From contig NC_049982.1 of NCBI RefSeq assembly GCF_000003815.2, positions 9,695,349 through 9,759,348 on the forward strand: a stretch of DNA of 64,000 bases, given 5' to 3'. Below are positions 17,950 to 61,979 of the stretch, piece by piece. Within the stretch, counting starts at the first letter, position 1. The number at the start of each line of letters is the position of its first letter. The stretch is from Branchiostoma floridae. Its lineage: Eukaryota > Chordata > Leptocardii > Amphioxiformes > Branchiostomatidae. The notes below the pieces were generated by a model. The model saw nothing but the letters and a program-made list of their open reading frames with translations, was not told where the DNA came from and ran no database searches. A program made the position numbers and the translations under genes.

Positions 17950-20900
17950 TCAGCTTTTGATATAGACCTCTCCCTCACCTTGCAGGTTGAGTTTTTGCAA
18001 CAGTTGTGTCACCCTCTCCTTATCTGCTAACACATCAGTAAGTGTTGTTGGGAGCAGACATGGCAGGGTAGTGTTGAAGTGCAGCGTGATGTTGTTGTGG
18101 AAGGTGGCATACACCAGACAGGGGACATTCTTTCCTGGCGCCACTGCATACAGACCTGATGGAAAAAATTGTCAAACAATTGACTGGTGTGTCAACTGTG
18201 GGCCCAGGATCATAAGACCCTCTCTCTGTGCCAAGATGTAATTTCAGAAGTAGATGAACTGAAGTACTCATTGATGAAGACTAACAAAAGGTCTGCTTTT
18301 TCCCAAATGCTTTAAAATGCGTCTTATAATTGGCTAACTGCCACTGCAGGCCTGCCAAACTGCTATGTTAGTCCAAAAGGCAGGTATACTGGTTGTCCAG
18401 TGCAGATGATATAAAGACAAACTGCCAATGTTAGCCAATGCCTCTCTCCATGATGCAGAAGCGCCCCCTACCTGCACAGAAGGCATTGACAGGCTGGTCG
18501 AACTGGAAGCGGACCATGTTGCGCAAGTGGTCCATGATGTACGTCTGTCCGTCCCACCCACAGGCCACGATCTCGTCTTTTCCATCCATCTGTGTGGGAA
18601 AAAGAGGTTCCTGTCATTGTATATCAAGTCTTGTAACAGCATTATTTCAAATGGTAGTTATGTTTTGTATGATGTCAGCTTTTAGATCATTTCCTTCTGC
18701 CTGTGTTCCTCTATTAAAGAGGACTTCTCTGGTATCATAACACATTTCCTTGCCCCACTAGCTTTACAAGAAAATACATGTCTTGGAGAGGAAAGGCCAC
18801 ACAAAAGCAACTCGAAATTGTAAGCTGTGAACAAGATATCCAAAAACGTTATCAGACATCATTGTACATGTACATACACAAACAAACTTAAGAGATAAAA
18901 TGCGTATTTCTTGACATTGTGTCAATCATCCTTATTCACTACTCACCGTGACATCCAGTTTTGTAAGAGAGAACAGGTGGTGGTCCACCTGAAGTGACCA
19001 AACAATCTCCTCCCCCTGACCCAGCATCAAGGTACCTGAATAAAACAAACAAACAGTTGCCAAATTCTGCCTGACTTTGTGAGTCAAAAGAAGGATCGGT
19101 ATACTTGTCAGTGTTTTGAATTTTTTTTAAAAATAATCTGTGATGACTTTGCTTCTTTTCTATTGAATTCTTTGGTAAGCAATATCAATTTTGGGTACAT
19201 AGAAGATACAACACGGGATATTCATAATATTATTAAGAAAGAAAATATGGATTTGGTCATTTAGAAAGGCCAACAGGATGGAACGTTAGTAAGTGTAAGT
19301 AAGTAACCACCTACCATCAAGGGTGCACATGGCATACAGCCCCCGCCCTGGGCAGTCACCTGCATCATCTGAGGGCCCTACAAACAAATCAATAAACAAC
19401 AACAAAAGGTATCTCTGAACAATCATTACAATTCGAACAAACTTCTGTGGGTAAGGCTGAGTGTGTGGAAAGTGTGGATCTGCATTTTATATACTGTATA
19501 GGGATTTCTGACATTTGCAATAATGGGCTATTTTTCCTTGTTGAATGACCACTCTCTGTAGTGCTGTATGTAACGCTAGTTCACCTTTATTCGCGGGGAA
19601 ACCTATATCCGTTGTATTTAAATCCAGGCTACTTAGGGGTATCAAGTTGACGGACAGTACGTACTTTCCAACTGCAATGAATATTTTGAAGAAAACAAGA
19701 AATCTTTTTAAAAAAGCTGTGCCTTGCCGCGTATTTTATGTTATTTTGGTAAGTTAGACTAGATTCTACGCTTAAAAATCCCGAATTCCACATGTCGCCC
19801 CCCTCCCCCTCATTATCATAATTTATGTCAGATGAATTATTGGCACATTAAACAGGTTTTGTAAAACTTTTTGACCCACAATGAATATGCATTATTTTTT
19901 ATTACAAACTAAGTTCCTTCTGATGCGATTTGTGATATATATTTATATAAACATGGTGAGTTAAAGCGTAGATTTATTACGCTGGACCACATACAGTAAC
20001 ATGCGTCTAGAAGAGCGTTTTAATACTCGTCTGGAATGTACCATTGTCTAACTAAGCCATGAAACTCGGCACGTTGATCACTTCATTGTGACAATGTGTT
20101 TTTGCCCGTATGTGGTTCGAAAGTCGGTCGAACTCTGGGCTTTGATGAGTTGATCTATTGGTTTGAAAGTCGGTTGAACTCTGGGCTTATTGAGTTGATC
20201 TAATGGTTTGCAAGTCGGTTGAACTCTGGGCTTTAATGAGTTGATCTAAAACTGCAGAATCTAGTTGCAGCATTGTGGTTTACTTCTGCCCCCCGCCCAT
20301 TGCGTTGACTGGGCTGAGAGGGGCAGAGGTGGTTCATCCATTGTGGGGCGTTCGCCCTGTTTCGCATCTGCAAAATCTAGTTGCAGCATTGTAGTTTCTG
20401 CTGTCCCCCGCCCATTATATAGACTGGGCTGAGAGGGGGCAGAGGTCATCCATTGTAGGACGCTGCTCTGTTTTGCATTTCAAGGGTTGAGACAGACAGT
20501 GGTGTCCATTTTGTCTGAGTGGAAATTTCCACTTGGGCTTGCTCCTTGGCAAATTTAGCAATTTAGTTTGAGAACCAGTAGCGCCCGGAGAGGCTGCCTA
20601 GTCTATTGGTTCGTACTTGGTTGTTCTTTAAGCGTGTCAGTTTGGTTACACGCCTTCAGTTACGTTACGTTTTCAACCCTTGCTGCCCGTGGAGGCTGTC
20701 TGATTTACAGGTAGTGTTTTTCAGGGTCTCTGGCAGCTCTGTCTGCTCATATTTTGGTTCCTTTTTAGTTTTATTTGGTTCTAGTTAAAGCTGCATTATG
20801 AAGCGTCCTCTTTCAATAAAAGTTGCCGTGTACCGTGATCGGTTAACGTATGAACAAGTGTTTACTTTGCTGAGCGAGGTTTCGGCTCCCATGAGCAGCA

Positions 20901-23900
20901 TTCAGGCTGTTCAGTCTCTGGGACCAAACTCATTCGACGTGTCATTTTCCTCGGTACACGAGCGTACATTGTATGCGGGGAAACTGTCTGGTTTAGACGC
21001 CGTGGATGTGTCATCTTACGCGGCGGCGGAGATAATTGTCACGGCCACAAGAATTCCGTATGAGCTCGATGACAACTATGTCAGGAACTGGTTAAATCAA
21101 TACTGTGCCGTCATCACGTCCCGTATGGTAACATACCGGGACAGACCGACCATCAAAAATGGGAACCGGCAATACAAAGTAGTTTTAAAGCCGGGATGCA
21201 ATATCCCATCAGCATGGAAAATGTATGACGGGAGGATGGTTTTCTTTAGGTATGTGGGGCAGCCCCGTACCTGCTTGAGATGCAACCAGGAAGGGCATGA
21301 GTCGGCAAATTGTGCAGTAACATTTTGCAACAAATGCCAGTCCATTGGGCATTTGGCCATGGATTGTACCAACGATGTTGTGTGCCTCAGTTGCAGGGCA
21401 GAGGGACATACGGCTCGCCGTTGTCCCCTGTCCTTCGCAAACAGGATTAAGATGGGAGCCAGTTGGGCTAAGAGCCAAGAGCTCCCGGCAGGTGTGAGTC
21501 AGGTCCGTGAACACCATGATGGAGGGGTTCCTCAGGCTGCAAATAAGCCTGATCGGTCGGAACTGGCCCATGTTTCTGACGCAGAGTCTGGTGTATCTGA
21601 TCCTGTTTCGCCTCCAGGTCACCCTGGCAGTGTGGACCCGGGTACTTCTTCGGCTGTGAAGTCGGATGTTTCTTCTCCGGTCGCGGAGTCGGAGGCTTCT
21701 CCTCCGGTCGCGGTGGTTGAGCCGTCTGAGGACGTGCTGTCGGAGGCCGCTCCTTCGCTGACCAAGTTTTCTCCGGTCGCGGTGGTTGAGCCGTCTGAGG
21801 ACTTGCTGTCGGGGGCCGCTCCTTCTCTGACCAAGTTTTCTCCGGTCGCGGTGGTTGAGCCGTCTGAGGACGTGCTGTCGGAGGCCGCTCCTTCTCTGGC
21901 CAAGCCTGGCCTTTCTTCCTCTTCTAGCGAGCAGGTACCCTCAACATCTGCTGCTCTGGTACCGGCCCCTCGCGCCCGGTCCCAGAGAAGGAGGCGTAAG
22001 GCGGCCAGTCCAATCCGACCTGTTACTCGTCGGTACATGTGTCAGGGTTGTGAGTTGGATTACACAATCACTCTGGAGGTGGTGTCTTGTCATCAGTGCA
22101 AGGCAGACATAACTCCAGAATCTGCTCTCCTTGCTTTCTGTGAGGGCCCAGTTTGTCAAAGCGATAATCGCCTCTTTCTTTGTCAGAGCTGCCATGATGG
22201 CAACTCTGATATTGCTGACAAAGATTCCAGGAAAAGGTGTAGGGGCGATTCCAGTGAGGGATCTGCCTCTGCAAAGACTTTGTCGAAAGGAAAAAAGATT
22301 CGTAAGGAGCCGGATTCCGACTCCAGTCTTGTTATCGAGGAGTTTCCCTCGGAGAGTCTTCGTTCTGTGGACGGTAACGAGTCTGACTCTACTGTTGGCT
22401 CCAGAAGCCTCATCATTGATGAGGATACTTCGGATGCCTCTCAGGCTCCAAGTCCCGATTTGGTAGCAAAGGCGAGAGCCATTGTCATCTCCTCTGACTT
22501 GTACAAGAATAAGGCTGTCTTTGTGTGCAACCAGTTTATTTCTCATGGTTGTGACGAACTCTTGCATAGTTTTAGGTCTTTGAAATCCCACCTTGCAAAG
22601 GCGCATGGCATCTCCGGGGACGTTGTGCCTTGTAAGGTTGGTAATTGTTCGAGGTTTTTTAAAACCACGATGTTATGTCTCAAGCACCTCTACAATGTCC
22701 ACCCCCAATTTGTTAACCGAATTGGTGTGGAAGGAATTGATGATCTGTACCACTAATTCCTCACATTCCGATGTTGTTTGACATTCCTTCTCTATGTAGC
22801 CTCATGGTTCTTATTGCTACACTCAATGTCTGTGGGCTCCGTAGTCCGCAGAAGAGGAGGCAGGTTTTCGGCTTTTGCCGTCAACATAAATTTGACGTTG
22901 TTTGCCTCCAAGAGTGCCATGTTTCGTCAACATCTGAAGCGGTGCTCTGGGAGAAGGAATGGGGAGGCCAAGCGTTTTGGGCATTGGGCTCCTCCCAATC
23001 TAGAGGTGTGGGTATTTTACTCTCTCCATCTTTCAATTTTGATGTGGTTAAAAAGTCTTGTGACGATAGTGGGCGTGTTGTCTGTGTCGTCTTGTCCGAT
23101 GGTGTGCGTAATTTCAAAGTTTGTAACATGTATGCTCCTAACATTTCTGCGGAGCGTACTGGATTTTTTAAAAATTTGTATAAGTTTCTGTCGGGGGCTG
23201 AGCCCCTTATTTTGTGCGGTGATTTTAACTGCGTTGAAGATGTTGATATTGATAAGAGGGGCGGGAACCCGGCTCATGGTAGTGGCGGTTCCACCATTTT
23301 AAAAGACATTTGCGCCGATTTTAATGTGCATGACTCTTGGAGACATGAGAATCCTTCTAAAAAGGTCTTCACTTGGAGACAGCCGACCAAAGGTATTGCC
23401 TGTCGGCTGGACCGATTTTATTCGTCTAAATGCCTCGTCGTTTCAAACTACTGTTTTTTACCCGCATATTTTACAGACCATGACTGTGTGTCCTTGTCAA
23501 TTTTACCGGATGTGAAGAAGAAGCCTGGCTTGTGGAAATGTAATGTATCGATTTTAAAAAGAGACAAAGTTTTAAATGATTTTAAACTCGCTTTTAACAA
23601 TTGGAAGACTTTGAAACCAGGTTTTCCTTCTTTGCGAGCCTGGTGGGATGATGTAAAGGCTAGAACTCGCTCTCTCCTGATCAGAATTTCTTGTGAACTG
23701 GCTAGGGAGAGACGGGAGTCCATGTTTACCTTGAATAATGAACTTGTCGATCTCACCAACAAGATGAACGACGGGGCCTCTTCGGCGGACATCTTGCGTA
23801 GGTATGAATGTACTAAGTCTTCCTTGTCCGAGTTGTCCGCTGAGGAGGCTCGCGGTGCTTTTGTTCGGTCCAGAGTCAAGCAATTTGTCGAGGGGGAAAA

Positions 23901-26900
23901 ATGTACCTCGTATTTTGTAAGCCAGGCCTCTTCCCGAAGTAGGCAGCGACGCATTTCTTCGGTCAGAGATTCTACTGGACGTATTGTCCAAGATGACGAG
24001 GAGATTTTAGATGTTTTTAAGCTATTTTATGAAGACCTTTTTAGTGCTGAGCCTATTGATAAGTGTGAGGCGAATAACCTTTGTAACAATTTAGAAGGGT
24101 CTTTGGATCCTGATGAAGTCTCTTCATTAGAAGGTCCTCTTTCATTGGATGAGCTTTGGGCTGCATTGCGCAGTATGGAGAATAATAAGTCCCCTGGCAG
24201 TGACGGTCTCCCGAAGGAATTTTATGTCGCTTTCTGGGACGTCATTGCCGGGGATCTCCTCTCAGTTTATGAGGAAGTTTTTTCGTCTGGCGAGCTCTCT
24301 CAGAGCCAGAGTTTTGGTGTTATTACTCTCCTTCCAAAAAAAGGGGACCCTCTGGACCCGAAGAACCGTCGCCCAATCTCTTTGTTAAATTGCGATTATA
24401 AGATTCTTGCAAAGGTTCTTAACAATAGGCTTAAGATGGTTGCCGCCTCGGTCATCAGTCCTGACCAGACATGCGGTATACCAGGCCGGTCGATACAATG
24501 TAACCTACTTTTGATGAGAGATATCGTTACATATGTTAATATGAATAACTTTGACTGTGCGATCATTTCTCTGGATCAGGCCAAGGCCTTTGATAGAGTG
24601 AATATTGATTTTCTTCACTTGACTCTTGCGAAGATGGGTTTTGGCCCGGTTTTTCGCAAATGGGTTGCTATATTGTACCACAACATTACCAGTGCTGTTT
24701 CCGTCAATGGGTCGCTATCATCTTCTTTTTCTCTCTCAAGAGGTGTTCGGCAGGGGTGCCCTATGTCACCCCTGCTGTACGCAATTTCTTTGGAGCCATT
24801 TGCCGCTACAGTAAGGGCCGACGCTGCGATTCACGGCCTCAGGTTGCCTGGTGGCCGTGAAGTTAAGATCTCGCAGTATGCGGACGATAACTCGGCTATT
24901 GTTACAACCGATGAGTCGATCCGCCGGCTCTTTGCTGTTATTGACATGTATAACAGAGGTTCCGGGTCTCTTTTAAATCTTGACAAATGTATGGGTCTCT
25001 GGCTAGGTAGTTGGAGGAAAAGACTCGATTGTCCGAAGAATTTTAAATGGACATCTGTATCCATACGTTTATTGGGAGGTACTTTTGGAAGTGTTAATAT
25101 GCCTTTAGTCAACTGGAGGGAGAGGCAAGCTAAGTTTGAAGCGGTTCTGCGAAAGTGGGACAGCTTCTCTTTATCCTTCGCTGGCAAGGTTGTCGTCGTT
25201 AATAACCTTGCTTTCTCTACTTTGTGGTATATTGCTCCTGTATTTTCTCCTCCCGAGTCAGTCGTCAAGGACATTACGAGAGCCGTCTTTAAGTTTTTCT
25301 GGAGTTCTCGTGCAGAAATGGTCTCTAGACAGACAGTTATGCTACCTTTGGACAAAGGTGGATGGGATCTCATTGATTTTGGAGTGAAGGCCAATTGTTT
25401 TTATTGTCGGCCGTTTACCAATATTCTTGACCGGCCGGATCTTCCATGGGTCCAGTTGGCAAAATATTGGCTGGGTTTTTTTGCCCGTCGTTTTGAACCA
25501 TCGTCGTGGTCTAACAGTTCCCCCCACTCTCCTGAGGCTCCACCTCACTATTCTTTGATGCGGAAGCTCACCTTGGAATTTGTTAATGCTTCTGCTTCGA
25601 AGACTTGGGACAAGATATGCACCGTGCAGTCTTTGTACAAAGCTGCCATTTTAGCTCGTTCTCATACCCCTTCCGCTTGTTTTTTAGAGCGGGGTGTTGA
25701 TTGGTCGCTTGTTTTTTCAACGGTGCATAACACTCTCCTTGAGAATAACCTAAAGGAGCTTTCCTGGAAGGTCGCACATGGGGCTCTCAAAACCAACTAC
25801 TTGACTTGTTCGATTTGGCACAGAACTCCTTCCCCTCTTTGTCCGAGGAGAAACTGTAGAGCTACGGAGACCGTTACCCATGCCATCTGGTCTTGTGGCG
25901 AGGTGCTCCTGACCTGGACTTGGGTCGAAGGATTCATTAGGCGATGGGTGGTCTCTAGTTTTCGTGTTTCTCGCGCGGTCGCTCTCTATGGTGTTATGTC
26001 GTCTACCCTGAAGAAGTGTAAGAGAGATGTCTGCACCTACATTTTGGCCGTCGCTCGGTCTAAGATTTGGTGGTCCAGGTGTCAGGCTCTCTTTGACAAT
26101 AATTTCGTATTTCACATTGAGCTGGTGTCTCTAATCAAGGAGGCTCTTAGGTTTAAACTCAAGATGGAGTTTGTTCGACTTGGTTCTGAAAGTTTCTTGG
26201 CTGAGTGGTGCCAATCTGTTAGATGGGCAAGTGTGCGGACGGGAGTTTTGGTTCTACGTTTTTAGAAGTCCTTGTCGTAGTAGTCTTTGTTTGGTGCTAC
26301 AGTCTGTCTTTGCTATTGGTGGATTGTCTGTTAGATGTTCAGTGTGTGTGCTCAGTCCTTCACTATGGTGTTCCCCTTCTACTCTCTAGTCCTCTTTATA
26401 ATTTCCAGTTTGCTTTGATGTGTCGTTTCTTGGCAGAAGGTTGGGCGGGTGCAAGTCTGCCTCGGGTGGAATGGCACATCATTTTTCTTTGTTTCCATTC
26501 ATGAGTTGTTTCTTCTTATATTATGATGGTTTTCAGTTTGGTCTCTGTCTGTATTACTAAAACTGTTTGTATACCCAAAATAACAAAGGGCCTTTGGAAG
26601 GGGCTTTGGAAGGGCTGGGTTAAAAGGTCCGTCCATTGATCCATGGAAAAAAGCTGGCGTAAAGCCTTGCCTGGCGGCAAGGCAAAAAGCCACTTGAAAC
26701 CACCGTCTATTGACTTGATATGCCTAAATACCGTTTTTAGATACAACGGATATAGGTTACCCCGCGAATAAAAGTGAGCTAGCGTTAGGTCTTTATATAC
26801 CAAACAGCCTCTGCAGGCAGACTCTTCTTGAGATTGTACCTGTTGCCAAGTTTCCAATGATCTCTGTTGACACATCGGGGTTCCTGGCCCGGGAGGACAC

Positions 26901-44811: not shown

Positions 44812-46086
44812 TGCAGCCAGACTAGCCTGACTTGTGTCTGTGTTGGAATGACTATCACCAATGGCCCACAAGACCAGGGATAAGCACTGCACAGGGGAAA
44901 TGTTGATATGTGTCCTACCAGCTTTCCTGGAGCTGTTCCATACAGCATGTTATTGGGGAAGAACCCACATTTCCTTCTGTATCTGAGAGTTTATGTCCTT
45001 AGTAACCTTGCTTTAACCTTTCAAAAGTATTTGAAAAAAGTTCTGTGCAAGCTGTATGATGCCACTATATGCCATCAGACCTAAGGTACAATGGTAGCTA
45101 CCAGTAAGATGTACATGTATGTATGTAACCTATACTTAGTATAGTTATCACATATAGAGAATTAAATAGTAACAGTTTCTAAACAGTGACTTTTGTTCAA
45201 AGCAACTCATCCTATTTTGTAGTTTTATTTGTGTTTTTTTTTTACATTTGTGTATTGAAGAATACAGATGTTTTGTGTGGATTGCAAATAAGCAGATAGG
45301 GGGAGATATGTTACATGTAAGACTGTTTTAAAGGTGTCATTTTCTATAAAAAGTGAAATTATATTTTGCCCTTGTGAAATTGTGTTGATTGGTCCTGTAG
45401 TTTATGCACTGTAAAATGATATTGAACTTGCTTATGCATCTACTCTTTGACTGTGATTTGATTTGAAACTACACACTTGTAATGTAGGAACTCTATTCCT
45501 GAATTATTTTGCCACTTGAGTAGCTAGCTTATGACTTATGTTTTGTTCAGCAGTGTACAAGTATGCTAATGTGTCGATTTATTTGGAGAGGGGTGAAAAA
45601 AATAAATCTGATCCTATCATCAACTGATGCTTGCTGGATTTTATGCATGGAGTAGAAATCTTTTTGAATACTTTGTATATTTAAGGTGTTGCAAACCTAT
45701 GACTGAGAGATGCCCATCTTCTGGGTGAAAGTAATGCAATTCAGACAATGTATAGTACTGAATAATTTTTATTCTCTTGTGATACCTCTTGGGTGGCCGT
45801 TTCTTCGGTTCCATTCTTAAGAACTACATGTAGGGCGCAGACAATGCCTCTCATTCACAGCACCATGTGGCTGTGAACATCACTGATAGCATGCTACCCT
45901 TTTCAATGACTCAGCAATTCTCACGCTGACTGAACAATGCCTTTCTGGCCTACTCTTAATTCTACCGCTGTCCGCCAGCGGGTCGTTATGTACGGTACTT
46001 ATCCCGTAAAAGCAAACACCTGCGATGCTTTCGGGCTCTAGCTAGAAATTCTATTGTCCATCTCAGGATCAAAACTTCGAATCCTT
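44812..46086. other. Convergent 3' ends of RUVBL2 and the secreted-protein gene
   Basis: Plus-strand AATAAA near 45600 and minus-strand AATAAA (TTTATT near 45768) face each other about 170 bp apart. They could end RUVBL2 and the gene at 46.1-50.6 kb. No coding exon was seen. Confidence 0.5.
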
Positions 46087-49000
46087 CTACCCGAAGAACG
46101 GGATCTTGGTCCAGTCTGGTTGAAGCGTTGGTCGGGCGTTTGGCGGGTAGACTCGCGGGTCGGGCGTCCGTTTGTGGGAGGCGGCGGCGTCGCCGCCGGT
46201 CTGTTTGACCTGCCGCTCCTCGATGGACCGCTGCTTGTCCGTCTGGTCCCCGAATGGCGTAAGGAAGAAGGCCGGGTTGACCGAGGACGAGCGGACCGGG
46301 CTGCCGTCTCGGGTCCTCTCCGGGATCCTGTCGGCGGCCGAGCGCCGCCCGAAGGAGCTCCACATGTTGAGGTTGGCCGCTGCCTTGGGTGGCATCTCCG
46401 CCAGGACTGGCATCCCCGGGACGCCCGGCTCGTCATCCTGCTCGGGCGGAGCCGGAGACGCTTGCGGGGACACCATCCTGCCGAACACCGACCACGAGTT
46501 GGGGTTGTACTCGGGCGGCTCGTTCTCGTACTCCCACCCCGACCTGGCGGTGTGCGACGTGGAGACCTCGGTCTCCGTGGTCTGCCTGGCGGTGCTGGTG
46601 CTGTTTTGCTCGGTGGTGGCGATGTTGGACGTGAGGATGCCATGCAGCGTGGACGCCTCCTCACCCTGCCGCCGCCCCTGCTGCAGCCCCCGCCGGCTGG
46701 ACCCGTCCAGACCCGGCACCTTCCCGTGCATCATCTTGTACATCCAGCCAGTTGCCACCAGGACCGTTGTCATGGTGGACCGCACCAGCGCCTCGATGGT
46801 GGGCCCGTGCGTCAACACTTCCCGCAGCAGGACGGCGTCGTGCACCGCCCGACCGTCACCGCTCTTCGCCGTGTCTTCACGAGCACCTACACAGACAAAC
46901 AAAACAAAACAAACATTTATAAACTCCATCATCCGCAAAATATGAGCTATGCATTATATGCACCTGACAAGTGTGACTTTTTTCCGAAAGAGTTGAAATT
47001 CTTTCTTCTGGAGTCATTATGATAATGATAGCGCAGTCGCTTGTTTAATTGTGGCAATGGTTGATGTCAATCTCTAGGTAGATTTACCGGTGCCATAAAA
47101 TAGTATCAGAGTTGACCAAGGAGTATAACCGGCCAAAGGGAATCAGTCGGGCACCGATAGTATCTTATAGCACCGGAAAATCTGCCTGCTGGGCATTAGG
47201 TTGACATAAAGATGATATGATCATAGGGACCATGGCTTGTAAAAGTTTCAGGCAAGTACCGTGTGTCGGTGTGAAGTGCTTTAATTGAAAAAAATGAAAA
47301 TAAAAACGCGTATGCATAGAGTTACACACACTTATGTCAAATTCTAAGAGTCGTGCAAAAAAACACGTTTCCCCCGAGCCTGAGCATCGATCCAAAGATT
47401 TCTGTTATTGTCAGGTCAGCTTCCTGCCTCTCGTGTTAATCAGTTTCCGGAGGAGTGTGCGTCTGGGGGGATCAGAACTTTCGTCACCTCTAACACCACC
47501 GAGTGGTTAATACTTAGAGGTAAGACGCCTCCATTAATGTTTCCTGTAGCCCGTCTTAATTCGTTCTCGAAGCAAAGCCGAAAGAGAGAGCTCCTCTGAC
47601 CGCTTCCTGTCCGAGGAATCAATGGTGGATTTAGAGTGCGTCAAAAGCCTGGATTTGGTGCTGGAGCTAATTAATAGCTTAGCTAAACCCGGTCTCGGTT
47701 GCACTTATTCGAATCTGTAAAGCGCTTACTGGCCGGGGAGGATGTAGGGGTGTGTAAAGCCTCAGAAACATTCGTAAATACCGAGCATGGTCCTACATCT
47801 TTTTGGACGGGGTAGAGAAGATTGAAACATGAAGCTTGAGGCTCACGATCACAGAAACGGTATTGATGTACCCACAATTTAAAGGTGTATAGTAAAGCAA
47901 AGGCGAATAATCAATTAACTTGCGTGGACTGTTCAGTAGAGAAGAGTTTTACTGACACGTTTAATCAGTCATTTTAAGCTCTTTGCAAAAAAGATCATGC
48001 GACAAAACAAACAAAAATTAAACGCTACCTAGCTAAACAAAGTCGATGTCATTTGAAATAAATGTATCTGATTAAGTTGCATGTTACGTTCTGATTTGAG
48101 ACGTACTTCGTCAATTCCAACTACTGCACAATCGAAAACGCTTGCGCCAAGTGTTTTGATGTCGTTTTTTGTGTAATCTCTTCTACTAAGATGGTTCAAT
48201 AAACATGAATAGCCAGATCGAAACGATGGCATGAAGCTGCATGTTGCTGGAGATAAAAAAAACGGCATGTTCAGAAGTCGGTCAATCGCGCCTACTGACG
48301 ACTGAAGCTGGCTTTTCCCAGCAGTGGATATCATATTCTGGTAATCAGGTAATCAAGCAAAGTGCAATTGTTTTAGTAGAAATCTTCTTTGATGCAGGTC
48401 ATAAGTCGGGTATCTATAAGCAATCGCCCCTGTTTTCTGATCACATTACTAACGGGCTTGTAGAAAAGCCCATTGGGAGAGGAACATGAAAAGGTAGGTT
48501 GATTTTTAAAAAGGCGTGGATAGGATTTTGCATAAAAGCAAAAGCAAATCGTTCACAATAATTGCCATAAACAAGCGTTGCGAGGCTCAACAAATATTTC
48601 AATACATGGCGGCGGCGAAATCCCCGCCCCCAGGCTTAAGTTCCAGAAAGCCGGAAAACCTGCACTGCCGTCAGCGTTCAAAAGGAGGATGGACTAGTAC
48701 GGAGTGCAATAAGTACGGAGATCGCCTTTTCACATATTTCCTACGTAACACTTCCTGGTGTTTTGTTTTAACAAATCGCGTACAAATGAGGAATCGATAG
48801 ACAGAACAAGGCTCAAAGCTTATGTACAATGGATACTTTCGACCAGAATCTACCTCTAATGTACGACTAACAGGTGCTGGTGTAGACGTTTAGCCTCAGG
48901 TGCTAAATTAACGCCACAGAGCGTGGGGATTTTCTTGTCCAAGCCGGTGACTGCCTTTTGAACCCGGCGGCAACGAATAATTTTGTCACTGATACAACTT

Positions 49001-49736
49001 CAAGTATGATTTCAAATTAGTTTTTGAAGTATGAAGTGAAATGTTCTGCGCTAGGAAGTCAGATTTTCATTAGTAATTGATTAGATCAATTAACCATTTA
49101 CCAATACGCTTGGAATGGTGATTTGGAATACATGTGCACGCTATGAAAGATACCGGTCCAACGCTTTTAGTTTCAACAGACATGAAACAGTCTCTTAATA
49201 ATGTGCAGCACGGAAACGAATTCTGGAGTTTGAAGAGAAGAGATGCCCAATTTTCCAAACAAAACATTAACAGTTTCAATATTCTTCATATACACCATGT
49301 GCTGCTGAAGGGATTCAGTTTCAAACAGTGTTTTCCCCTTAACGGTTCTTGGTACTAATAATGTCCGTAGCGACAATACAATTAGGCGTTTTAGGGTTTA
49401 TAATGTGCTTTTTATCTGATGGAACAGAAGTCCGTACTTGGTTTCTCGTGGGCCGTCTTCTCTACGGATGAACGCATTATAAGTCACGAAAAAGCCCGGC
49501 TTGTAGAGCTTACTAAACAATCTGAATCAAACCTACCTATTGACACTCACTCACGATAAAAGGTATGCTTTCGTGATGTGACAGTGTAGTACATTTGTCA
49601 TAGTCTGTTTAATACTACCTGTACAGAACGAATAAAACTCACCATGTGGAAGGAGAATGTCTCTCTGTGTGCCCCTGCACCCCATACTACATGCTACGAG
49701 TAGCAGCACGGCAACCAGTAACCTTCGTTTCATCAT
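46087..49736 (-). CDS. Secreted protein of unknown family, candidate precursor of amidated peptides
   Basis: Coding exons 49736-49643 and 46886-46087 join in phase to 297 residues. Residues 1-22 are a strong signal peptide (MMKRRLLVAVLLLVACSMGC); no membrane segment is clear later. From about residue 145 four similar motifs occur: YNPNSWSVFGR (158-168), NLNMWSSFGRR (203-213), NPAFFLTPFG (235-244) and PDWTKIPFFG at the very C terminus (288-297). F-G followed by R or RR, or by the stop, is the classical signal for peptide C-terminal amidation. Basic candidates for cleavage lie before or between them (RR 96-97, RR 103-104, KR 270-271). The third motif is followed by D, not a basic residue. The region between is low in complexity and polar. 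I recognise no family; a neuropeptide-like precursor is inference, a linear-motif-bearing secreted protein is the alternative. Confidence 0.75.
46887..49642 (-). other. Intron 2 of the secreted-protein gene, no other gene seen
   Basis: 2.76-kb intron between the signal-peptide exon and the main exon. ORFs here are short and lack splice or family support. Confidence 0.5.
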
Positions 49737-50545
49737 TCCTGGTATAGAACAGACAAACGCTCAGTTAGTATCGAACATAAACGCGACATTAGATGATTAG
49801 CCTATTCAAAGGACTCGTGATCGGTGCAAATCAAGTCTACAATGGGACATTATATCTACTAAGGGTAGGACAAGCATTCCGGGAGAGAGAAACGGTACTT
49901 AAGTTACTGCGACAGAATATCAGCACCTTGGACAGGGCGCTCTTGTTATTCTTAACGAATTTCAGCACCAGGGACAGCGCCCATAGGCAAGCGTTTGAAT
50001 CGAATTTCCGCGACAGATTTAGAGCCTTACCAATTAACAGCGTTAATTAGGGAGACACCTGTGTTGCAAACACATACCGGTGTTTCCCACCGTGGCTACT
50101 AGCAGTGTAGACGTAAAATCTTTAACTAGAGGACTAGCGTTTGAACGGGAACGGCGCACCAATAAGCGCTCCAAGAACTTGCGGTTGTGGGGTAGGTCCC
50201 GGAGGGGTTACACACAAGCTGAAATCCGTCTTGAGATTTTAACCATTGTTACCTTTCTATCAAACAATCATTTCCCATTCATGGCCAGTCTACTCGATTT
50301 TTTCTCCTTCTGGATATAGTTTCAGTAAAGCAAATGCAAGGAGTGAACGATGCAAACCGGGGTGACTTTTCAAGAATTGATTTAACAAACGAAAGAAAAC
50401 ATGTAGACCTCAGGAAACGCCAGAAGTATTGACCAAATTTCTTTCAAGAAACGAATAAAACTAAGTGGCATAAAATGAAGCCAGAAATACGGGGACAAAA
50501 CGCACACTGAGAGAAAGAAAATATCATACAAAGGATTTGACTCAC

Positions 50546-50606
50546 CTGTACCAAGCCGCTGAAAATCTTTCTCTGAATCTACTCAACAACTCACTTCTCT
50601 TATAAA
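50546..50606 (-). promoter_or_regulatory. TATA box and short 5' UTR exon of the secreted-protein gene
   Basis: Minus-strand TTTATAAG at 50606-50599 is followed about 50 bp later by CTTGGTACAG with donor GTGAGT (exon end 50546). An acceptor ATACCAG sits just before the coding exon (exon start 49738). A TATA-driven short leader exon fits a regulated, tissue-specific gene (inference). Confidence 0.6.
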
Positions 50607-51149
50607 CCCGCGTTAATTAGGCTGAAGGGCTGTGTGGACGCATCGCCCCTTCCTCCTGTCAATCAAAAGTGGCACTCCCACGTCAGAGAGGCTGAGTTTC
50701 CCGCGCCAGTGGGGGGAAATGCCGCACGGCGGCTTTGTCGCGGGGTGGCGAACTGGTCATTAAGCAAACTGCGATTTGGTCCTCCTGCGTAAGTGGCTGC
50801 CGACTCGCGGAGGGTTATTGACACGGCGATTACTGGAGCCGGAGGGGAATCAGCAAGGAGTTATCCGAACACGTGTGCCGTGAGCCTCGGTAAATGGCAC
50901 TTTAGAAAGGGCTTAATGCAAATTAAAGCCTTTTCTTGTCGCCTTGGCGAAGCTGTAAACATTCAGTTTCTGTTTCATCGTTGCTAGCAAGTTAAGAAAT
51001 ATTATTTCATTCTTTTTTTCAACTTTGTGCCATAAATAACGCACGTATGTCTTGGTGATGTAAACGGGAAAAACGACGGACTTTAGATGGAATTTAGATA
51101 AGTTCGATCGTGTTAACGCTGGAATATTGTCAGATTCTATCGTATAGCT

Positions 51150-51340
51150 ATAATTTGCTAGCCTGGGTACCATCCGGAAAGTAGTTCGCTCCGGCGTTTA
51201 TCATACACTATATACAGTCACTTCTCGCTCTAACATATACTATATACTGTCGCTTCTCTGCTGTTCGGTGTCTAGAAGGGTAGCAGAAGTGAACATAGGA
51301 GCGAACTACTACCCGGATGGTACCCAGGCTAATAATTTGC
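51150..51340. mobile_element. 173-bp MITE with 9-bp target duplication, copy 1
   Basis: The element 51159-51331 starts TAGCCTGGGTACCATCCGG and ends with its exact reverse complement (19 bp). It is flanked by a perfect 9-bp direct repeat ATAATTTGC (51150-51158 and 51332-51340). A second inverted block (TAGTTCGCTCC / GGAGCGAACTA) lies inside. A 9-bp duplication is typical of Mutator-like elements. Confidence 0.9.
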
Positions 51341-54415: not shown

Positions 54416-57400
54416 TTACTGAATAGCTGAGAAGCTTATGTTTCCAACATCTAACTCTGCAATAGTGTCCAACCCGAGTTCCTCCAGCAACTTTCCAAAG
54501 CTGAGGTTCTGTGCCACCGGTTCGTTATCGCTGTCCTTCCCCTCGTACACTTCCTTCAGGGGCGTGAGGCCAGGCAGACCAAACTCCCGCAGGGACCCCA
54601 GCTGCCCAGGAGAGGTCTTTGACCTTTGAACCCTCCCCAGTAGAGGTGCGAAGCCGTCCTTGATGGGACTACCGTGCTGTGTTAGGCTGTTGCTGCTGTG
54701 TAAGCCACTGTCTGGGGTCCTGGGAATGGAAAAGTCTTGGATGGGAGAGAAGAGTCCTGGACTACGCGACTTAGGAGGCGTCACCGCGGCTTTCCTCGGC
54801 GTGGAGGTCGTGACGTTGCGTCCGATCACAGGAGTCCTGAGGACAGATCTGAGAGGAGAGATCTCCAGATCCAGACTGTTCAACAAGTCGCTGAAGCCCT
54901 TGTCTGGAGAGAAGAGCAGATTGCTGTCTGGTGACCACAGGAGCTGGCTTCTCCCTACAACATCCTCCTCCTTAACACACTCCTTTGTAGGCGTGAGGTT
55001 AGTGGTCTCTTTCAGTGGTGATGAGGACAATGGCCGGTAAAACGTTGGGACGGGCCTGCGCTGAGAAGAGGTGGGAGAAATGATGGACTTCCGTTTGCGT
55101 GGCGGAAGGTCGAACTCGCCTGGTCTCTTGATGCCCTGTGTGGCAGGCTTGGGGAAGATTGTCCTGCCAGTTACACCACTGGGCCTCAGGGAGGGGCTGG
55201 GAGGAACAGGCAGGTGGCCCTGGCATGGCAAAACAAAACAAAAAACAATTAATGATTGCTTGCAATGTCGACTTACACTCTTGATATCACATAATTAGGG
55301 CTGTGTACCTAAATACCCGTACCTGTATCGTACCTAAAACAATGTTTAGGTACAGGTCCGGACCTAAACATCTGTGTACCTGTACCTGTACCTAAACAAA
55401 CTAAATCACTATTAACCACTACTTTTTAAGACTGATGGACAAGTAAATCTCGAATCAACAATGACAATGTTGATAATCTTGCAGTTGAAACTTAAGAAAA
55501 CTTCCAGAAGAAATTGGTTTGAGACTCAAACATGTAATTCCAAATACAAAGATGACAATTTATCACTAGAAAAGACAGTTAGCTACATGTTTATCTTACA
55601 TATACTTGGTTAAACTTTTTTAGGTACAGGTGCAGGTCCAGACCTGTACCTAAACCTGTGTACCTGTACCTGTACCTGTACCTGAAATTTGTTTAGGTAC
55701 ACAGCCCTACACATAATGCACATGTGGTCTGAGACAGTTGGACTTAAAGATTTAGTCCTAAAATCTCCCTTACTTTGATGCTGGGAAATGTTATATATGC
55801 TCCTCTCTGTCAATCCCAGGCACATGAAACAGCCCTACATCTGCAAGGTCACTCACCTTGGGTTGAATCCTGACCACCCCACCAGATCTGCGTCCCGGGG
55901 TGGGGATACTGGCCACTGGCGCTGGGGTCGGTAACACCATGGGGACCACTGTGTAAGCACTGGGTTTAGGTGGGCAGGGCAGGAGAGGGGGTGGGCCTGG
56001 TGCATGGAAGAGGCAAAACACGAGTGATCAGTTTCTTTGATCAAATTTTTCCCTTTGTTGTTCTTCTACACAGGATTTGATTTCTGTGTACAACTTGTAT
56101 TTAAGACATCTTATTAAAGGCATAAAGAAGACAAACAGCAGTTAACCCACCAGAAGGATATATCTGCGTGTTGGTCGTGCATCTTAGTCGCGCTTCTCTT
56201 CGCTCCATCTGGTCTATTGTCAAACAGCGCTCCTGAAACGATTTGTATATGTCAAACATGAGTTCATCCTTTCTTTGCTTAATGGGTCTTGTACAGTTAA
56301 ATCTGAACTGTACAGTACTGTGTGGCTGTCAAAACCTTACAACCAAGCTGTAAGCACAGTACATTTCATTTTGTCCCAGCAGGAAATTTGGGTTATACAG
56401 TTGATCTGAATCTCACTTCTATGACTGATGAAACATGAAGTAGTGTACTGGTGTTTCACATAACCGTCTTTGTCCCATCACATACCTTAGCCTCATGACA
56501 TAGAGTCCAGTATGACAGTGCCCTGCCGCTCTCACATTTTGTTGTCTCACGTATGAAGATGTCGTGAAGTGACAGATTGTGCCGGATGGAGTTCTGAAAG
56601 ATATCATTATCAGTGAAAGATGTCAGATGTCACTAGTATTAATCAAACTAATGGGTCAGAAAAATTAAACCAAAGTATATGGGCCATTCTTAAAACTGCT
56701 AACTGCAGTATGGATTGCGTGCCCTCCCAGAACATGGGGAGGGGTGGAGCATATTAGATATACATTATACTGACCTTCCATCCTTGTTTGGCAGTCTTGA
56801 AATACGGGAAGCGACCTTCGATCCACGTGTAGATTTCCTTCAGTGTCATGCGGCGTGCGGGACTGCTGTTGATGGCAAACTGTATGAGCGCCATGTAGGA
56901 GTAGGGCGGACGGTTGCTGTCGTGGGACTTCCTCTGGGGCTGCGCACAGAAGTAACATATTATTGTGATGTTCTCAGACATAAACTTTTTGGTATAATGC
57001 TAGTCGAAAAGAATATTCAGGACCTGGTCTAGCAATGCTAGACCAGGTCCTGAATATTCTTTTCTGTGGTAAGTGTCTTGATAATATTGAATGTGTTAGC
57101 CAGACAAATGTATAGCAAAATTTTTGTTTTTCTTTTGCAATCTAAAACAGAATTTTATTCAAACTGCAGTACCGGTATTGTAGTTGTGATTTGAATATCA
57201 TTATCAAAAGATTGTATAGGTGGCAGAATGAAAGAGATTTTTGTCTACAGATACAGTCTTATTTTATAGTTTTAATAATTTTACTCATCCCTTACAGAGC
57301 AATGGTACAGTCCTTACCTTGCCTATCCTGTCATATTTCCTGTCCTGTTTGTCCAACAGTGTGTTGGCTCCCATCTTCCCCAGCCAGTGGATATTGGTCA

Positions 57401-60829: not shown

Positions 60830-61979
60830 ATGCCACGTCGCCGGAAGAAAACAGGCGACCAGAAGCATCCACTGATGTTTACGGAGAGCCCATGTGAGGG
60901 ACCCCGGCATGACAGCACGCTGGTGTTTGCCGCACACAGCCCTGTCACAGCTGATATCGTCATGGTGGACCCGAATGACACATCATCATGGGTAAAAACA
61001 GCGTTCCAGAGTAGTATTCTAATATATACCCTCCTCCACTAATGCATGGAGGTACAGTAAATTCCTTGGCTTTTGCAGTGGTCATATTTAGCAGTTTTTT
61101 TCCCAGTGTTTTACTTTTTGATTTAAACAAGGTTGAAACAATTCTGTAGTACAATTACATGTACAATAGTCATACAAGGGAGACATATGCCCCAGTGTCA
61201 CAAAAATGCAGTGGAGAGGAAATGAAACAACTGCAAAAGTTTCAAGATTTACAGGTCATTATTGAATAAAAAGCCTGCAGATCCACACAGAGTCTTACAG
61301 CTGAGGGCAGAATACTTGTCTTGGGTCCATCAGTTCTACCTGTGGAAAGGGGCCAGTGGAAAATACTGATAAGTTCAACATTTTCAATAAAAAGACAAGA
61401 ATTTGTAGTAAATGCATTGCTATTTACATTTCGGTGGAATCCCCAACACACATTTCTGCCTCATTGTTTTAGGTTTCCCCCCAGTTTCGAGCCAGCCAGA
61501 TGGCCTGCAGTGAACCCAAACGTAGGAGGCGGGGAGCCAAGAAGACGTCCAACAATCAAAGTGCTGTGGTCGGCAGGCGGAAACAAAATCCAACTGGACA
61601 AGAAAACATCAGCACTGTACAAACAAATGATGTCCGGACGAAGTTAAAGTATGGGATTCTGAAGTTTGAAGGAGAACAAACGTACACTGACTTTTCTTCA
61701 AGTAACGACAGTACGCTAGAAGAACTGGACATATCAGAGGAAGAGGATGACCCAAAATGTCAAGAAGAAGAACAAGTTACACCAAACAGAAGGCATGATG
61801 AAAAAAACAGAACTAACAGAGAGCCTCTCCTTCCCCCCAAAGACTGGACTGACAAACTGAACACAGCTGCCAGGGATATTTTGGTACAAGACACTCCTGT
61901 TGGTTGTTATGGCATGAAAGCTAGTGCGCAGAGAAGACAGGAACTACTACGCGCAAAGACATTCCAAACCATAGAATAA
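60830..61979 (+). CDS. RHNO1: RHNO1, 9-1-1 interacting checkpoint protein
   Basis: Two coding exons, 60830-60991 and 61473-61979, join in phase to 222 residues (human 238). The start MPRRRKK follows an acceptor TTTCAG at about 60820, so there is a non-coding first exon. The motif S-W-V-S-P-Q-F, formed exactly across the intron, corresponds to the RAD1-binding motif of RHNO1, by which it docks on the 9-1-1 clamp and promotes ATR signalling with TOPBP1 (known in mammals). The basic segment (KRRRRGAKK), acidic middle and C-terminal VQDTPVGCYGMK...RRQELL also match the family. Head-to-head with FOXM1 as in mammals, which strengthens the call. Confidence 0.9.

Follow-up and report, generated by a model that had tools for sequence, protein, structure and literature searches.

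What is made by the gene on the minus strand of a 64-kb stretch of the Branchiostoma floridae (amphioxus) genome, between a TATA box at 50606-50599 and an AATAAA at 45773-45768? The stretch (G000:C4:9695349-9759348) is hereafter called the window, and coordinates are positions in it unless another contig or locus is named. A preliminary description, made from the sequence, had read the gene as a possible precursor of amidated peptides of no described family. We consider it likely that the gene encodes a neuronal or neuroendocrine secreted precursor of W-x-x-F-amide and FF-amide peptides, which would be silenced in other tissues by REST through repressor element 1/neuron-restrictive silencer element (RE1/NRSE) sites and whose family is undescribed, meaning undescribed in the literature searched.

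The gene model consists of the following features.

50599..50606, minus strand: TATA box TTTATAAG, matching the gene in position and orientation and the sole TTTATAAG on the minus strand within 45500-50800
50546..50575, minus strand: predicted non-coding exon 1 of the 5′ untranslated region (UTR), ending at the donor CAG/GTGAGT (from sequence)
49764..49770, minus strand: branch point TACTAAC of intron 1 (from sequence)
49643..49738, minus strand: exon 2, with two leader bases, ATG at 49736, a signal peptide starting MMKRRLLVAVLLLVACSMG and a phase-1 donor (from sequence and hydropathy)
46087..46886, minus strand: coding part of exon 3, with a helical N-terminal spacer and a motif-bearing region (from base composition by codon position and structure model)
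45768..45773, minus strand: polyadenylation signal AATAAA, about 315 base pairs (bp) past the stop (from sequence)

The start of exon 1 was placed by assuming that transcription would begin about 25-30 bp past the TATA box; its last base is 50546, the donor GT lies at 50545-50544, and intron 1 closes with the acceptor AG at 49740-49739, exon 2 beginning at 49738. The coding exons (49736-49643 and 46886-46087, minus strand, stop codon at 46089-46087) give a spliced product of 297 residues with the C-terminus DWTKIPFFG. The coordinates, the product length, the TATA box and the positions of four Phe-Gly motifs given in the preliminary description were all borne out by the sequence, and its two-exon gene is accurate for the coding exons; because a donor, a branch point and an acceptor predict a further, non-coding 5′ UTR exon, the gene probably has three exons in all. 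A sequence resembling a cAMP response element, TGACGTGG, was seen at 50678-50685 (minus strand), some 70-80 bp ahead of the TATA box, and a pair of imperfect 41-bp inverted repeats that includes GCCTGGGTACCATCCGG lies just upstream of the gene (51152-51338) and resembles a small transposable element.

Because the plus strand of the same stretch also holds an open frame of 326 residues, and because the candidate frame stays open in 49 of 2000 shuffles, the length of the open reading frame (ORF) alone is weak evidence for a gene. The codon-position signal is strong: guanine plus cytosine (GC) content at positions 1/2/3 is 0.62/0.55/0.88 in the candidate frame, none of 2000 shuffles was as periodic, and the third-position excess holds across all seven sub-windows. 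It is hardly credible that this is no functional gene and merely an open frame in a GC-rich stretch. Such a reading could draw on the composition (68% GC, CpG at expectation) and on the other open frames, that of 326 residues on the plus strand included, but the plus-strand frame with the same third-position GC of 0.88 contains 2 stops, its GC at positions 1 and 2 being 0.55/0.61, and the signal-peptide exon stands in the correct phase within a set of TATA box, donors, acceptors, branch point and polyadenylation signal.

The protein begins with a signal peptide (mean hydropathy 3.43 at residues 6-16) and has no further membrane segment (best later 19-mer 1.01), both judged by hydropathy alone. 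Past the signal peptide, dibasic sites stand at residues 96-97, 103-104, 212-213 and 270-271. Four FG dipeptides are present, all inside the four motifs, as are all 7 Phe residues. Gly followed by basic residues or by the end of the protein, the donor arrangement for amidation, is found in three of the four (FG-R, FG-RR and the C-terminal FG). The motifs and their predicted products are as follows.

46483..46542, minus strand: core of candidate peptide 1, residues 147-166 SGWEYENEPPEYNPNSWSVF, followed by G and one R (predicted processing)
46351..46377, minus strand: C-terminus of candidate peptide 2, residues 202-210 ANLNMWSSF, then G-RR (predicted processing)
46252..46278, minus strand: motif 3, residues 235-243 NPAFFLTPF, followed by G-D, which lacks the basic residue that amidation usually requires
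46093..46167, minus strand: candidate peptide 4, residues 272-296 TPDPRVYPPNARPTLQPDWTKIPFF, between KR and the terminal G (predicted processing)

Peptide 4 is the cleanest predicted product, KR at 270-271 and the terminal Gly together giving TPDPRVYPPNARPTLQPDWTKIPFF-amide. Cleavage at G-RR (211-213) would yield a peptide ending AANLNMWSSF-amide, and at G-R (167-168) one ending SGWEYENEPPEYNPNSWSVF-amide. Monooxygenase domains of the PHM/DBH type are present in the genome, in a search that does not tell PAM from DBH.

The motif counts exceed chance. When the sequence after the signal peptide was shuffled at constant composition, four FG were reached in 181 of 200000 shuffles, three FG followed by K/R or the end in 7 of 200000, and two WxxFG in 5 of 200000, these statistics having been picked post hoc, once the sequence had been seen. 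Among the 68 stop-to-stop ORFs of at least 100 residues in the window, the candidate alone has at least two amidatable FG and alone has WxxFG. Scored on ungapped 9-mers, motifs 1 and 2 are more alike than chance would give: their likeness is reached in 59 of 100000 shuffles when this pair alone is considered and in 312 of 100000 when the best of the six pairs is taken. The preliminary description was right to read four FG motifs of precursor type and to remark that the third has no basic residue after G (FG-D). Its consensus for all four did not survive: it applies to just motifs 1 and 2, motif 3 is without a processing site, and the Trp of motif 4 stands at a different place.

No known domain was found. 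In a Pfam scan of the protein, whose filters remove most matches above an expectation value (E) of about 0.1, no family exceeded its cut-off and only Mucin was listed (E 0.63, 10.5 bits against a cut-off of 34.7); a PDB sequence search gave no match at E<=10, and NCBIfam and Rfam searches gave none. An AlphaFold2 model of the exon-3 part, computed from the single sequence, had a mean predicted local distance difference test score (pLDDT) of 54.8 and a predicted template modelling score (pTM) of 0.20. It places helices at residues 11-53, 63-100 and 214-227, counted within that part, and leaves the motif-bearing half without a globular fold. The preliminary description had named a known globular domain as evidence against a peptide precursor; none was seen in Pfam, PDB or the model, an outcome that for a single-sequence model agrees with the precursor only weakly. 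The 513-Mb genome holds a single copy of the gene; a second genome match (L003) was discarded as noise (E 0.331, 25% identity, 6 stops).

The same features bear on another reading, in which the product is a secreted neural protein of granin-like or extracellular kind and no hormones are cut from its FG strings. Long acidic, Thr/Ser-rich spacers, a helical first half, one dead motif and a size large for the number of peptides would suit it, and an RE1 marks any kind of neural gene. Every Phe is clustered in the FG motifs, three of which carry processing signals, and FFG, preceded by a KR site, forms the very end of the protein, which makes a protein of that kind unlikely.

A secreted amidated-peptide precursor is well supported by the signal peptide, the basic sites, the Gly donors, the lack of a predicted fold in the motif half and the RE1 sites of intron 1. 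There are two of these sites, 42 bp apart, and the preliminary description does not mention them.

49961..49981, plus strand: RE1/NRSE site TTCAGCACCAGGGACAGCGCC, 19/19 half-site positions and 20/21 to the canonical site
49919..49939, plus strand: second RE1-like site ATCAGCACCTTGGACAGGGCG, 3 mismatches of 19

The canonical NRSE sequence was taken from PMC3529185. The locus thus holds the 21-bp site by which neural genes regulated by REST/NRSF are recognized. At up to 3 mismatches this pair comprises the only RE1 matches in 64 kb, and 100 shuffles gave none (zero-mismatch mean 0.00). Genome-wide, RE1 at up to 1 mismatch occurs at 196 places against 0 for a reversed control pattern and about 0.2 expected under uniform bases; among the genome places listed, nine have zero mismatches, the TTCAGCACCAGGGACAGCGCC site being one of them. 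The motif is strongly non-random in this genome, in which a REST-type network seems to be present. Flanks of the candidate's sites, compared with 29 other fetched RE1 loci, gave matches of only 14-30 bp that were nearly all RE1 core, and the sites are therefore not part of a repeat common to those loci. Tandem repeats holding RE1 cores, many copies in a row, were seen at G000:C2:18106294-18113710 and L029:1017-2012; such arrays might serve as a decoy or an expanded silencer.

To survey the genes near other RE1 places, ORFs within 10 kb on each side of the 8 remaining zero-mismatch places and within 1.5 kb on each side of 21 one-mismatch places were ranked by an approximate coding score, and 20 ORFs from 17 of the 29 places (8/8 zero-mismatch, 9/21 one-mismatch) were scanned against Pfam. 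A neural or neuroendocrine neighbor was found at 4 of the 17 scanned places. These were a complexin exon about 6.9 kb away (Pfam Synaphin 6.6e-17; PDB synaphin 2.8e-7); an exon of a neurotransmitter-gated channel (Cys-loop receptor) about 2 kb away (Pfam 1.5e-8), at a place that also holds pectinacetylesterase and kringle exons; a voltage-gated channel exon about 240 bp away (Ion_trans 21.3 bits, under the cut-off of 25; best PDB match a T-type calcium channel, 2.5e-10); and a prohormone convertase 1-like gene with a one-mismatch RE1 502 bp ahead of its ATG (L025:307-1104, minus strand; G000:C1:23759841-23760542). The convertase-like protein has a signal-peptide-like start and an S8 pro-domain (9.1e-16), its sole PDB match is prohormone convertase 1 (8.1e-4), and its exon matches just itself in the genome. 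RE1 thus adjoins some neural genes, and neither exclusivity nor an excess over other places is implied.

Taken together, the gene probably works like an amidated neuropeptide precursor, and it belongs to none of the families tested. In the proposed mechanism, the RE1 sites of intron 1 would bring about REST-type repression and keep the gene silent outside the nervous system, and the signal peptide would direct the product to secretory granules in peptidergic cells. There, prohormone convertases would cleave at KR, RR and single R, carboxypeptidase would remove the basic residues, and the amidating enzyme would convert the exposed Gly, giving Phe-amides that end in W-S-V-F-amide, W-S-S-F-amide and I-P-F-F-amide and that may act on a G-protein-coupled receptor.

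Several points weigh against this reading. The helical N-terminal half (exon-3 residues 11-53 and 63-100) is unexplained by it. Motifs 3 and 4 have no above-chance likeness to other motifs, the six pairs summed being ordinary (43642 of 100000 shuffles); the FG-D of motif 3 has no usual route to amidation, motif 1 has just one Arg as its processing signal, and without cleavage at single basic residues the predicted peptides 1 and 2 would be long, peptide 2 having 42 residues. The survey of RE1 neighbors was neither blind nor accompanied by a matched control, and 13 of the 17 scanned places had no neural neighbor shown, with domains of ZIP transporter, EF-hand, mucin-like, cadherin-like repeats, C2, ROK, methyltransferase and fn3 types and, for five ORFs from five of the 13 places, no Pfam family. 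Some other RE1 places lie inside tandem repeats. The literature passages covered hold no statement on an amphioxus REST protein, for which the genome was not queried, and the evidence comes from the sequence of one genome.

By extension, the gene would found a chordate neuropeptide family so far undescribed (W-x-x-F-amide plus terminal FF-amide), and an RE1 network that a cephalochordate already possessed would keep it silent in tissues other than the nervous system. We hold this extension tentatively, as a possibility that falls somewhat short of an even chance. Amphioxus is an outgroup to the vertebrates among chordates. Its peptide receptors are many and outnumber its known ligands, as in B. 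floridae with 16 kisspeptin-type receptors and four identified precursors (PMC9400282). If the precursor is what it appears to be, its products are directly synthesizable; if the founding-family reading is true, they could serve amphioxus receptors that have no known peptides, and RE1 sites could help to find further unknown neuropeptide genes. Because RE1 is non-random in this genome and is found both in intron 1 of the candidate and at the convertase 1-like gene, the age of REST control over neuroendocrine genes becomes testable.

Elsewhere in the window, the candidate gene lies between RUVBL2 on the plus strand (PDB match RuvB-like 2, 5.9e-18) and FOXM1 on the minus strand (forkhead exon 56757-56999, PDB match 3.1e-21). 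Close to the forkhead exon and pointing away from it is a weak RHNO1-like ORF at 61473-61976 (plus strand; RHINO 16.1 bits, under the cut-off of 25). Human FOXM1 and RHNO1 are adjacent and divergent. An element of the long interspersed nuclear element (LINE) type, long open, occupies 20789-26262 (plus strand), with a zinc-knuckle ORF of 655 residues and an endonuclease/reverse transcriptase ORF of 1173 residues.

Which family, then, could claim the gene? The amphioxus neuropeptide literature does not name it in the titles or passages covered, and a literature search on the motif letters gave nothing on neuropeptides by title. Against Pfam, PDB and the motif membership tests below, the statement of the preliminary description that no described family fits holds, and its reading of a secreted amidated-peptide precursor is well supported; the part of its interpretation that fell away is the four-motif consensus.

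In vertebrate cholecystokinin (CCK) and gastrin, W stands fourth from the amidated Phe within the string W-x-x-F-G-R-R-S-A. The candidate has the same W and, after peptide 2, the same FGRRSA, and filing it with CCK/gastrin was considered on that account. It would then be a much-diverged missing amphioxus member of the cholecystokinin/gastrin/sulfakinin (SK) family, for which an acidic Tyr-containing sequence ahead of motif 1 and the likeness of IPFF-amide to LFF-amide in the starfish SK/CCK peptide (PMC8428848) also speak. The type is defined by C-terminal GWMDF-amide, the chordate hallmark, and by Tyr at position 6 or 7 from the amide (PMC8428848). The candidate has WSSF and WSVF instead; its nearest Tyr is ninth from the C-terminus in motif 1, and motifs 2 and 4 have no Tyr nearby. 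According to PMC4772807, B. floridae appears to have lost both the peptides and the receptors of CCK type, and PMC2246102 reports that CCK receptors A and B are missing. The filing was rejected on the GWMDF and Tyr tests together with this reported loss of ligand and receptor. The Pfam scan, which presumably included a Gastrin family, listed only Mucin, under the filters given above. The human neighbors of CCK and gastrin are TRAK1 and HAP1, and the genes recognized on either side of the candidate are RUVBL2 and FOXM1, no search having been aimed at TRAK/HAP1 in the window. An exact coding sequence for GWMDFG followed by K or R was found 0 times in the genome (control 0), a search that an intron-split copy would escape, and on this result no canonical CCK member competes for the position. 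Membership in this family is very improbable.

We also think it improbable that the gene is a diverged precursor of kisspeptin/SALMFamide type, an unmatched ligand of the expanded kisspeptin-type receptors of amphioxus. There would be room for one: B. floridae has 16 such receptors and four identified kisspeptin precursors, and echinoderm SALMFamides have been aligned with kisspeptins and tested as candidate ligands of kisspeptin-type receptors (PMC9400282). In peptide 1 (NPNSWSVF-amide), Asn-Ser and an aromatic residue come before the C-terminal Phe-amide, and sea-cucumber kisspeptins end in LPF-amide (PMC7282810), slightly like the LTPF of motif 3. The likeness amounts to two or three residues. 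Kisspeptins end in Gly-Leu-x-Phe/Tyr-amide or Leu-x-Phe-amide (PMC9400282, PMC7282810) and SALMFamides in Leu-x-Phe-amide or Phe-x-Phe-amide (PMC9400282). None of the four motifs (SVF, SSF, TPF, PFF) has any of these endings, nor the Gly-Leu-Arg-Phe/Tyr-amide of the vertebrate kisspeptins in PMC7282810, and this filing too was rejected. A bombesin-like resemblance (NSWSV against NHWAV) was dropped, since the known amphioxus peptide ends in GHWY-amide (PMC12002301) and F-G falls outside that pattern.

Set beside known systems, the precursor of W-x-x-F-amide and FF-amide peptides proposed here shares with CCK, gastrin and cionin the W four from the amidated Phe and differs from them, beyond the missing GWMDF and Tyr, in being a multi-peptide precursor of 297 residues. 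With kisspeptin it has in common an Asn-rich aromatic core, N-x-W...F; F-G is itself the predicted amidation site in the candidate, which lacks the Gly-Leu-Arg-Phe/Tyr-amide ending. The amphioxus PQRFamide (GnIH/NPFF) precursor has 208 residues and three Phe-amide peptides (PMC4077772). RFamides, GnIH/NPFF and others, carry Arg before the amidated Phe, whereas in the candidate V, S, P and F precede it and Arg never does. A general parallel is with deuterostome Phe-amide precursors such as the echinoderm SALMFamide precursors, which have the same signal peptide and several Phe-Gly motifs with basic sites; from these the candidate is set apart by its W-S-V-F, W-S-S-F and I-P-F-F endings in place of Leu/Phe-x-Phe, by its few copies and by its long spacers.

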